Shown: positions 5,733-12,956 of the stretch, in pieces
How the letters are laid out: each line of letters begins with the position of its first letter
How positions within the stretch are numbered: the first letter of the stretch is position 1
Source of the DNA: Sporichthyaceae bacterium
Lineage (GTDB): Bacteria > Actinomycetota > Actinomycetes > Sporichthyales > Sporichthyaceae
Reading direction: 5' to 3'
Assembly: GCA_036493475.1 (NCBI GenBank)
Contig: DASXPS010000049.1
Coordinates: forward strand, 1 to 64,000
DNA length: 64,000 nt
Translations under genes and position numbers: made by a program
The notes under the pieces: generated by a model
What the model was told of the DNA's origin: nothing
Seen by the model: only the letters and a program-made list of their open reading frames with translations
Database searches by the model: none

Positions 5733-6293
5733 ATGAACTACCACCTGTTCCGGACCATCAATGACTGGTCGGGCAACGGGTTGTTCGACGAGGCGATGAA
5801 GGCGATCGCCAAGGACGCGATCTGGGCGGTGTTCGCCGCCTTCGCTGTGCTGTGCGTGTTTCGGCTGCGCGAATGGGATCCACGCCCGGTGCTGTTCTCC
5901 CTCGGCGCGCTCGGCCTCACCTACGCCTTCGGCCTCCTCGCCGCCGCGCTGCACCCCGAGCAGCGGCCGTTTCAGACCCACCAGGTGCACCAATTGATCG
6001 CCCATGACCCGGGGCAGTCCTTTCCCAGTGACCACGCCACGGCGTCGTTCGGGGTTGCCCTGACCGCGCTGGTGTTTCTCTCCCGTTCCTGGGGCATGCT
6101 GCTGTCGTTCGTCGCCGTGGTGATCAGCTTCTCCAGGGTCTACGACGGCGTGCACTACCCGGGCGACATGCTGGGGGGTGCGGTGGTCGCGCTGCTCGGG
6201 GTGACCATCGCGGTGGCGGTCGCAGTGGTGTTCGCCCGGCCCGCCAGGCAGGCCGCAGCCCTGCGGCCGCCGGTGGGCGCCGCCCGACGGTGA
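5733..6293 (+). CDS. PAP2-family phosphatase (undecaprenyl-diphosphatase-like)
   Basis: Integral-membrane lipid phosphatase of 186 aa with about five membrane segments. The three PAP2 signature motifs are visible: a short K/R-x-x-RP motif (HPEQRPFQ), PSDH in SFPSDHATASFG, and SR-x5-H-x3-D in SRVYDGVHYPGD. The likely substrate is undecaprenyl diphosphate or another lipid phosphate, by family. ATG 5733 follows GGAG and is the first start giving a normal PAP2 N-terminus (MNYHLFRTINDWSG). It ends 7 bp before corA, so the two are probably co-transcribed. Confidence 0.88.
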   Translation: MNYHLFRTINDWSGNGLFDEAMKAIAKDAIWAVFAAFAVLCVFRLREWDPRPVLFSLGALGLTYAFGLLAAALHPEQRPFQTHQVHQLIAHDPGQSFPSDHATASFGVALTALVFLSRSWGMLLSFVAVVISFSRVYDGVHYPGDMLGGAVVALLGVTIAVAVAVVFARPARQAAALRPPVGAARR

Positions 6294-6300
6294 GGTGACG

Positions 6301-7299
6301 ATGGCCGGAAGCGACTCGAACGGCGCTATCGTCGCCCGAATCGCCTATCACGAAGGCGTGCGGGTGCCGCACGCCACCGGGCCGGGCATCGACGACGGCA
6401 CGGCGTGCGACCTGCTCTGGGTCGCCCTGGAGAACCCCTCACCGCACGACATGGTCGGGGTGACCGCCGAGTTCGGGCTGCCCGACTTCGCCGTCGCCGA
6501 GGCGGTGCGCGCGCACCAGCGGCCCAAGCTGGAGCGGCACGGCGACGTCGCCTCGGTGGTGCTCAAGCCGGTGCACTACGTGGACAGTCACGAGGTCGTC
6601 GAGATCACCGAGATCACCTTGTTCCTCGGGCCCGGCTTCGTGGTCACCGTCCGGCACGGGGAGACCGACGTTTTGGGCCGGGTCATCTCCGAACTCGACG
6701 ATCCGGCGCCCGCTCCGGAAAGCCCGTTCGACGTGCTGGCCAGGGTCGCCCGACTGGTGGTCCAGGGCTATGAGGCGGCGCTGGACGGACTGAACGTCGA
6801 CGTGGACGAAATCGAGGAGGCGGTCTTCGCCCTGGGCGAGGCCGACCACTCCGAACGTATCTACAAGCTCAAGCGCGAGGTCGCCGAGTTCCGCCGGGCG
6901 GTCGCGCCGCTGGTGCGGGTGCTGGAGCGGCTGGCCGACGACATGTGCCCGGATCCCGGGCTGACCGGCCAGTTCCGCAGCGCGCACGACCACCTGTTCC
7001 GGGTGGCCGAGCTGCTGGAGGGCATCGACCGGCTGCTCACCGACGTGCTGCAGGCCAACGTGGCCCGGGTGACCGCGATCCAGTCCGCGATCGCGATCCG
7101 GCAGAACGAGGACATGCGCAAGATCTCTGCCTGGGCGGCGATCGCACTGGTGCCGACCGCGGTCGCCGGTATCTATGGCATGAACTTCGAGCACATGCCC
7201 GAGCTGAGGTGGCGTTTGGGTTACCCGTTGGCCCTCGGGTTCATCGTCATGGTCTGCTCGCTGCTGTACCGCACCTTCCGGCACAACGAGTGGCTCTGA
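6301..7299 (+). CDS. corA: CorA-family magnesium/cobalt transporter
   Basis: About 332 aa with the CorA layout: a long soluble N-terminal domain, a helical stalk, then two C-terminal membrane segments separated by the pore signature YGMNF and the loop MPEL. The GMN motif defines the Mg2+ channel family. ATG 6301 is preferred over the in-frame GTG 6295 because GAGG lies at 6293-6296 in front of it. Co-oriented with the PAP2 gene 7 bp upstream. The stop is 1 bp from the stop of the convergent methyltransferase. Confidence 0.93.
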   Translation: MAGSDSNGAIVARIAYHEGVRVPHATGPGIDDGTACDLLWVALENPSPHDMVGVTAEFGLPDFAVAEAVRAHQRPKLERHGDVASVVLKPVHYVDSHEVVEITEITLFLGPGFVVTVRHGETDVLGRVISELDDPAPAPESPFDVLARVARLVVQGYEAALDGLNVDVDEIEEAVFALGEADHSERIYKLKREVAEFRRAVAPLVRVLERLADDMCPDPGLTGQFRSAHDHLFRVAELLEGIDRLLTDVLQANVARVTAIQSAIAIRQNEDMRKISAWAAIALVPTAVAGIYGMNFEHMPELRWRLGYPLALGFIVMVCSLLYRTFRHNEWL

Positions 7300-7300
7300 C

Positions 7301-7936
7301 TCAGCCGGGCTTGCGCCAGACCAGGGTGTAGCGGAAATACAACCGGCGGCGGAACGTCACGCCGGGCAACGCGGCGGCAGCGATCGCGGCGATCTCCCGG
7401 TAGGAGTGCCGGGGCCGGGCCGGCGGTGCCGGGAACTCCCAATAGCACTTGCGCCGCGGGGTGGTCCGGTCCGCGACCATGCCCGCGGTCAGCCACAGCA
7501 GGTCCCGCGGGAAATCGATGCGGGCCGGCCCGATCACCACCAACGCGCCGCCGGGGCGCAGCAGCCCGGCCATCCGAGTGAGTGCGGGGGCGGCATCCAT
7601 GTGGTGCAACGCACCCACACAGGCCACCAGATCGAAGTGGTCGTCGGGCAACAGGTGGTCCTCGAACAGGCACACCTGGCGGTAGGAGATCGGGTCGCCG
7701 GTCACGGACAAGGCAGCGCCCAGGCTCGGTGCATCCGGGTCGATGCCCACCACCTCGGGTACCCGCGCGCGCAACTGGCGGGTCAGTACCCCGGCCCCGC
7801 AGCCGACGTCCAACGCGGACCGGGCGCCGGGCGGCAACGCGGCCAGCACCTCCGGGTAGTACTGGATGTTGTGGTTCCACAGCGGCTGCTGCGGATCCAC
7901 CAGCGCGGTCCGATCGGTCAGGCCGCCGTGCGCCAT
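7301..7936 (-). CDS. Class I SAM-dependent methyltransferase
   Basis: The 211-aa protein starts at ATG 7936 (MAHGGLTDRT). Motif I is ALDVGCGAGVL (about 41-51), followed by an acidic residue in VVGIDPDAPSL and a motif IV-like region DLVACVGALHHM; LLRPGGALVVIGP is the usual post-motif strand. It belongs to the broad Methyltransf_11/25 group, substrate unknown. A longer upstream reading frame exists, but the first 19 bp overlap the end of a 48-aa gene in another frame, which supports this start and suggests coupled translation. Confidence 0.85.
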   Translation of the reverse strand: MAHGGLTDRTALVDPQQPLWNHNIQYYPEVLAALPPGARSALDVGCGAGVLTRQLRARVPEVVGIDPDAPSLGAALSVTGDPISYRQVCLFEDHLLPDDHFDLVACVGALHHMDAAPALTRMAGLLRPGGALVVIGPARIDFPRDLLWLTAGMVADRTTPRRKCYWEFPAPPARPRHSYREIAAIAAAALPGVTFRRRLYFRYTLVWRKPG

Positions 7937-11804: not shown

Positions 11805-11849
11805 GGCGTCCGCTCGACCGTGAGCTATAGCTCACTGTTCGGCGGACGC
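11805..11849. repeat. 45-bp palindromic repeat, left copy flanking the DUF559 gene
   Basis: A compound palindrome: outer arms GCGTCCGC and GCGGACGC, inner perfect 16-bp palindrome GTGAGCTATAGCTCAC (11820-11835). It matches the copy at 12905 in 41 of 45 positions; the two starts are exactly 1100 bp apart with only the DUF559 gene between. The arms are conserved and most changes fall between arms and core. Confidence 0.9.
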
Positions 11850-11940
11850 GTCGGGGATGTCGACAGGTGACGGGAGCGGTTGTCCACAGATCGCGGAACT
11901 GTGTGTTGGCGTGGCGCTGAATTTGTCGAGGATCCCGAGC

Positions 11941-12894
11941 ATGGGGTTATCGGGGGAGAGCGCACAGCGGCGCCAGACTCGTCGTGTGCGGGCGGCGATG
12001 GCAGCTCAATCGAGCGGCGGTGTAATGAGCCGGCGAGCGCTGCCGGCGTTGGGCATCGACCGGTGGGAGATAGCCGCCGAGCTGCGCGCCCGGCGGTGGC
12101 TGCGGTTGGGACACCAGACCGTACGGGTGGCGCCGGGGGATGAGCAGTTGGCGAACTTCTACCGGGCAATCGCCGAGGTCGGCGCGCCGGCTGTGCTGGA
12201 CGGCGTCTCGGCGCTGCTCGCCGGGGGGTTGCAGAACTGGGCGGAAGGAGTGGTGCACGTCGCGGTGCCGAAGTCCGCGACGCCGCAACAGTGCAGCGGT
12301 GTCATCGTCCACGAGACACGTCGCTATGAGGCGTCGTCGGTGATCGCCGGGGAGGTGCCGCGGATGAGGCCGGGCACGGCCGCCGTCCATGGGGCACTGT
12401 GGGCCGTGACGGATCGTCAGGCCGCGACGGTGGTGTTGATGGCGGCTCAGCAGCGGCTGGTCACCCCCACCGAGTTCGCGGACGAGGTCGAGAAGGTCAA
12501 GTGGTCTCGCCGTCGTCGCCTGCTCCGCGATCTCGCCCTGGCCATCGGCGGGGGCATCGAGACCCTCGGCGAGCGTGAGTTCGCGGGGCTGTGCGTCAAA
12601 AGAGGACTGCCCGTCCCCGATCGACAAGTGCGCCGCCGCACCGACTCCGGCACCTGGGTGTACGACAACACATGGGACGCCTACAAGGTCACCGCCGAAA
12701 TCGACGGTTCCCAGCATCGCGATCCGGCCGCCTGGATACCCGACGCACTGAAGCAGAACGCCGCGTCGCTCGGGGGACACGTCGTCCTGCGCATCCCGAA
12801 TCTGGCACTGCGCATCGACCCCGAGCCCTTCCTCGACCAGCTGGAGGCGGCGTTGCGGGCGGGCGGTTGGCCCGGCGGTCGCCGTGCCGCGTAG
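11941..12894 (+). CDS. AbiEi-like winged-helix plus DUF559 (Vsr-like fold) protein
   Basis: From ATG 11941 (GAGGA eight bases upstream) the product is 317 aa. The N-terminal part VMSRRALPALGIDRWEIAAE then LRARRWLRLG is the winged-helix region of AbiEi-type proteins; the middle has GVSALLAGGLQNW and AVHGALWAVTDRQAA; the C-terminal part VTAEIDGSQHRD then QNAASLGGHVVLRIP is the DUF559 nuclease-like fold with a conserved Glu-Ile-Asp. Related actinobacterial proteins are usually called AbiEi antitoxin-like or DUF559. Activity is unproven and no AbiEii-type toxin is adjacent. Starts at 11998 or 12025 are also possible. Flanked by two palindromic repeats. Confidence 0.75.
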   Translation: MGLSGESAQRRQTRRVRAAMAAQSSGGVMSRRALPALGIDRWEIAAELRARRWLRLGHQTVRVAPGDEQLANFYRAIAEVGAPAVLDGVSALLAGGLQNWAEGVVHVAVPKSATPQQCSGVIVHETRRYEASSVIAGEVPRMRPGTAAVHGALWAVTDRQAATVVLMAAQQRLVTPTEFADEVEKVKWSRRRRLLRDLALAIGGGIETLGEREFAGLCVKRGLPVPDRQVRRRTDSGTWVYDNTWDAYKVTAEIDGSQHRDPAAWIPDALKQNAASLGGHVVLRIPNLALRIDPEPFLDQLEAALRAGGWPGGRRAA

Positions 12895-12904
12895 CGCTGC
12901 CCAC

Positions 12905-12949
12905 GGCGTCCGCTCAACAGTGAGCTATACCTCACTCTTCGGCGGACGC
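12905..12949. repeat. 45-bp palindromic repeat, right copy flanking the DUF559 gene
   Basis: Same design as the copy at 11805: GCGTCCGC and GCGGACGC arms around GTGAGCTATACCTCAC (12920-12935), which has one mismatch in the inner palindrome. It begins 10 bp after the DUF559 stop and ends 7 bp before the stop of the convergent SDR gene, so it could also serve as a transcription terminator. Confidence 0.9.
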
Positions 12950-12956
12950 CCCGGGG

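Follow-up and report, generated by a model that had tools for sequence, protein, structure and literature searches.

Within the 64,000-nucleotide stretch of actinobacterial DNA that was analysed, referred to here as the window, a single open reading frame is bracketed by two copies of one palindrome (Table 1). The two 45-nt copies are identical at 41 of 45 positions (counted by eye), and a direct repeat at 11805-11856 and 12905-12956 has a spacing of 1100 and 88% identity over 52 nt. Exactly two matches to the palindrome were found in the window, where none was expected from 100 shuffles. The gene on the left encodes a CoA-transferase III and is divergent, while that on the right encodes an SDR protein and is convergent. 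The original prediction of near-identical 45-nt palindromes around one DUF559/AbiEi-like gene, with their starts 1,100 bp apart, agrees with both the repeat and the ORF analysis. The spacing it had stressed is exact at this locus and is without significance of its own; elsewhere the distance between the two palindromes varies with the length of the gene. Translation probably starts downstream of the annotated ATG at 11857, as residues 1-31 are modelled with a pLDDT below 50 and homologues begin near residue 34.

Table 1. Positions of the palindromes, the gene and its parts in the window, and of the palindromes in the phoH-fumC slot of related genomes.
Feature	Position	Strand	Remark
Left palindrome	11805..11849	.	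42-nt core CGTC-N34-GACG at 11807-11848; between the divergent CoA-transferase and DUF559 genes
AbiEi-like + DUF559 protein gene	11857..12894	+	345 aa as ORF; true start is probably a later codon such as ATG 11941
DnaA-box-like TTGTCCACAG	11880..11889	+	Between left palindrome and gene body; recurs in homologues
AbiEi-like winged-helix / antitoxin-type region	11977..12510	+	Residues 41-218; PADLOC, fold match
DUF559 nuclease region	12571..12855	+	Residues 239-333; E239, D270, E281, H287 and D296 invariant (17 sequences aligned)
Right palindrome	12905..12949	.	42-nt core at 12907-12948; between the convergent DUF559 and SDR genes
phoH-fumC slot palindromes	L102 2666-2747; L244 4888-4958; L100 ~7853-7908; L101 ~12105-12160; L105 ~6293-6348

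The encoded protein is an AbiEi-like DNA-binding part fused to a predicted DUF559 nuclease of the Vsr-like, EDxHD type, an assignment supported by both profiles and fold. The Pfam DUF559 profile (PF04480) matches residues 257-333 with E = 6e-4 and 20.0 bits, just under the cut-off of 20.6, and 10 of 17 homologues match it at E up to 0.1; PADLOC assigned AbiEi in 16 of the 17. The AlphaFold2 model has a mean pLDDT of 84, and its N-terminal half matches the fold of AbiEi (6y8q_A, probability 1.00) and also that of Rv2827c (1zel_A), whereas the C-terminal domain has a profile match of E = 5e-6 to PDB 3hrl (NGO0050, a DUF559-type protein of Neisseria). The invariant residues appear to be those of an EDxHD/Vsr-like nuclease, the motif being assigned by order and spacing. 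The same order of conserved acidic and histidine residues is found in such nucleases, as in I-Bth0305I, and in 3hrl, which aligns to the C-terminal domain. Unlike I-Bth0305I and other EDxHD nucleases, the window gene does not lie in an intron or intein, has no known homing site and is flanked by palindromes. A comparison of the protein with plasmids gave no match.

The fold of the N-terminal half is shared with AbiEi of type IV toxin-antitoxin systems, as in Streptococcus agalactiae AbiEi and Mycobacterium tuberculosis Rv2827c. The binding sites of AbiEi proteins are inverted repeats of 23 bp, and neither of two such proteins bound the sites of the other (PMC7319586). These antitoxins are a precedent for binding of inverted repeats in a cognate-specific manner, and the window protein differs from them in being fused to a DUF559 nuclease and in having palindromes on both sides as well as dispersed. 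Neither gene adjoining the window gene encodes an AbiEii nucleotidyltransferase toxin, and the locus is not a member of the AbiE systems.

Further DUF559 loci were found with a profile built from 17 sequences, and 67 loci from Actinomycetia were sampled; 145 of 297 sampled Actinomycetia genomes contained DUF559 genes (E up to 1e-25). The covariance model of the window palindrome detected hairpins directly adjoining DUF559 paralogues, and when the flanks were read most paralogues had a matching palindrome on each side, the sequence of which differed by lineage. In a flank test the upstream 450 nt were aligned to the downstream 300 nt, with off-target windows of the same loci as controls and comparison by the Wilcoxon test. 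The median flank-to-flank score was 64, against 26 for the same-locus control and 24 across loci (n=67), and a score of at least 40 was reached at 57 of the 67 DUF559 loci and by 2 of 67 control window pairs (p = 4e-11). Hairpin scores were also higher in the DUF559 flanks (p ~1e-6 and 3e-7). Among 313 control ORFs, 15 reached a flank score of 40, about six of which were DUF559 genes themselves. The co-occurrence that the original prediction had proposed to look for is therefore present. It had also reasoned that the link would be coincidental if other DUF559 genes never carried such flanks and the palindromes lay at many gene ends as ordinary terminators; most of the genes sampled do carry them, and the dispersed copies are indeed found mostly at gene ends. 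No flank match was found at 10 of the 67 loci, which counts against regarding gene and palindromes as a unit. A chance origin of the palindrome pair is ruled out by the shuffles, the 67-locus flank test and the control ORFs, and a curiosity of the window only by the genome-wide copies described below together with the flank matches at other DUF559 loci. Two other genes also had strongly matching flanks, with scores of 116 and 138 (L151 2928-3875 and L106 16908-17609).

Where a genome holds several DUF559 genes, each has its own palindrome pair. In G000 the left and right palindromes of two paralogues scored 74 and 80 within a locus and 25 between loci, and in G002 the own-pair scores of 76, 60 and 72 stood against 21-29 off the diagonal. 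Palindromes of different DUF559 genes matched one another between orthologues only. For proteins less than about 45% identical, palindrome similarity did not exceed background, while above 70% identity 69% of pairs were similar; common ancestry would account for some of this co-divergence between flanks and protein. The palindromes share a length rather than a sequence: of 40 YGTC...GACR palindromes in DUF559 flanks 32 were exactly 42 nt and five were 38 nt, with unrelated sequences, whereas the controls held four of scattered lengths. Since 42 bp amounts to four helical turns, this length would fit a symmetric dimer that reads double-stranded DNA. The upstream flanks also contain the DnaA-box-like motif: TTGTCCACA was found with at most one mismatch on the + strand in 37 of 67 DUF559 upstream flanks compared with 1 of 67 controls, and [TC]CCACAG in 43 of 67 compared with 1 of 67. 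The motif might tie expression or activity to replication, and is a lead only.

The association extends to small DUF559 proteins of other phyla, which are about 115 aa long and have no AbiEi part; in Proteobacteria, Deinococcus and cyanobacteria their genes usually have G+C-rich palindromes beside them. The search query for these was a hand-composed consensus, and the matches are real records. G+C-rich palindromes were present on both sides of the small DUF559 gene in Azospirillum lipoferum, Sinorhizobium, Sphingomonas, Neisseria, Deinococcus, Qipengyuania and Picosynechococcus, while matching pairs were not seen in Shinella, Methylobacterium, one Azospirillum, Escherichia coli and Klebsiella. 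Across 14 small-DUF559 loci of other phyla the median flank similarity was 54, against 20.5 in controls (p = 9e-4). In Sphingomonas, a palindrome-flanked DUF559 gene sits within the suf operon, between sufB and sufC (L157 2471-2881).

Palindromes of the window family are also dispersed without the gene. A covariance model made from 14 copies and run on the 4.27-Mb genome (E below about 0.01) gave about 28 sites, 14 of which lie between tandem genes, six between convergent and two between divergent genes, while the remaining six overlap predicted ORFs, mostly near the ORF ends. At one place (G000:C129 3227-3347, L036) two palindromes of the family stand in tandem, 65 nt apart. Related palindromes are present in the other genomes of the order, and in a DNA search of 40 relatives close matches were found only in the genome itself and in one family member. 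The palindrome of G047 occurs at about 16 sites in that genome. It was found in none of 20 further family members, of which 13 are congeneric and nearly all have DUF559 genes of their own. For G123 the count is about 31 sites, and the palindrome is shared throughout its genus. Target-site duplications were not seen by eye around 18 copies in the window's own genome, which counts against a mobile unit.

The positions of these copies bear on what the palindromes are for. They could be operators, the AbiEi-like protein being an autorepressor whose nuclease domain has some other function and the dispersed copies its regulon. AbiEi antitoxins do repress themselves through inverted repeats in their promoters (PMC7319586), the left palindrome is just upstream of the gene, and its 42 nt would suit a double-stranded operator. 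We consider this reading unlikely, as a matching copy is also found downstream of the gene at most loci, the dispersed copies are so seldom between divergent genes, and the small DUF559 proteins are palindrome-flanked in spite of having no AbiEi part. The location of the dispersed copies, mostly at gene ends, suggests that they may also terminate transcription. As a further alternative, the palindromes might be ordinary strong bidirectional terminators or insulators, kept by their hosts and unlinked to the protein. In keeping with this, five of five genomes of the order have a palindrome in the convergent phoH-fumC slot (Table 1), its sequence differing from genome to genome as though the slot had been rewritten again and again. 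Ordinary terminators would not, on the other hand, be expected to match one another across a gene and differ from the pair around a paralogue of that genome, nor to occupy the 5' flank as the left copy does; matching flanks are moreover rare around control genes, and this explanation is very improbable. Alternatively, the palindromes might be moved by a transposase of another kind, for instance a RAYT, with DUF559 genes merely flanked or carried. This would accord with the usual role of HUH enzymes in moving non-autonomous palindromes, and is slightly less probable still given that DUF559 is the bracketed gene at locus after locus and that the palindrome sequence tracks the DUF559 sequence.

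In G001, which belongs to the same genus, the window unit is absent; the CoA-transferase and SDR orthologues are separated there by an aldehyde-dehydrogenase-like gene. G000, G002 and G003 carry a DUF559 unit linked to fumC, and G004 has part of one. This unit too is absent in G001, in which fumC and the conserved gene that follows, encoding the '6261' protein (about 610 aa), have been retained with other sequence between them. The original prediction had envisaged orthologous loci that lack the whole unit and retain one palindrome. The whole unit is indeed missing from both intervals in G001; a clean site with a single palindrome is found in neither, each holding other genes, and this speaks against the unit. 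DUF559 was not detectable in G001, which has few window-type palindromes and nevertheless keeps at least a few of another family, so that palindromes can persist without the gene, again a point against the unit. An earlier view that G001 was wholly devoid of palindromes was withdrawn when those of the other family were found.

Comparison of sequences establishes the bracketing, the cognate match of left and right copies, the co-divergence with the protein, the gene-free dispersal, the fixed length and the intact candidate active-site residues. With moderate confidence we read the 1.14-kb stretch as a single-gene palindrome-nuclease unit, the protein of which would recognise and nick or cut its cognate palindrome and so let palindromes spread. 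Recognition would fall to the AbiEi-like part, singly or as a dimer, with the palindrome in a double-stranded or cruciform state, and the DUF559 nuclease would nick or cut there; repair or replication could then copy the palindrome into other intergenic slots. The gene with its two palindromes would be the autonomous form, and hosts may tolerate the dispersed copies or use them as 3'-end hairpins, either as terminators or as mRNA ends. RAYTs are thought to spread REPs in a comparable way.

The observations point to a REP-like repeat system, selfish or domesticated, run by an enzyme unrelated to known REP transposases. REP/RAYT REPtrons likewise consist of one gene bracketed by palindromes, their non-autonomous copies are intergenic and mostly at 3' ends, and their palindrome families are lineage-specific. 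The enzyme there is an HUH Y1 transposase, whereas here it is an AbiEi-like/DUF559 nuclease, and REP palindromes are 20-40 nt long with an unpaired GTAG tag, whereas the window palindrome is about 42 nt long and paired to its ends. No Y1_Tnp was detected by Pfam and PADLOC, which give DUF559 and AbiEi, and the defining feature of a REPtron is therefore missing. The analogy with RAYTs and REPs, or with a self-recognition module, that had been drawn from the window has nonetheless held in the comparative tests, that is, in the flank counts, the cognate pairs, the family-wise dispersal and the missing unit in G001, as far as sequence comparison can carry it. CGTC-tagged REPs, which are said to lack a dedicated transposase (Di Nocera 2013, PMC3733652), resemble the window family in their dispersal and in the CGTC that they have at an end of the palindrome. 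Their CGTC is an unpaired tag on a stem of 8-9 bp (PMC3733652), whereas that of the window pairs with GACG to form the ends of the 42-nt palindrome, and the window palindrome is not a CGTC REP.

More tentatively, DUF559 proteins might constitute a second class of enzymes, present in several phyla, that mobilise palindromes independently of HUH transposases and generate lineage-specific REP-like families, such as the CCCTCTCCC-type of Proteobacteria and the ycjD-type of E. coli, by means of a co-evolving palindrome of fixed length. We know of no biological role assigned to DUF559 genes. If the proposal is true, the cognate palindrome gives these proteins a substrate, and an origin can be proposed for several orphan REP-like repeat families. 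It also bears on what moves palindromes without a RAYT, stated as open in PMC3733652. We do not claim that DUF559 explains the CGTC REPs, since the CCCTCTCCC-type palindromes differ from the CGTC-REP type. A search of the open-access (PMC) literature, in which 14 papers name DUF559, with subscription literature outside its scope, returned no report linking DUF559 to palindromes or repeats, and the link is provisionally considered new.

In E. coli the DUF559 gene is ycjD, which most genomes have between sapF and fabI; 3,363 of 5,426 genomes hold at least 80% of a 1,751-bp query. Strains without ycjD carry an efflux-pump locus beside sapF, and simple excision of the gene was therefore rejected. 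The palindrome downstream of ycjD is present in 1-24 copies per genome; SE15 and APEC O2-211 have 2-3 copies and many other strains 13-22. Over the 5' end of ycjD lies a long A+T-rich palindrome which, by eye, is unlike the downstream one (L166 ~2460-2515). The slot between ypfG and tkt (L266, L267, L268, L270) holds a ycjD-type palindrome in KE48 and WP2-W18-ESBL-10 and a different, REP-like sequence in ST131 and K-12. As the flanks of this slot are 99.8% identical between KE48 and ST131, the palindrome is a within-species polymorphism at one site.
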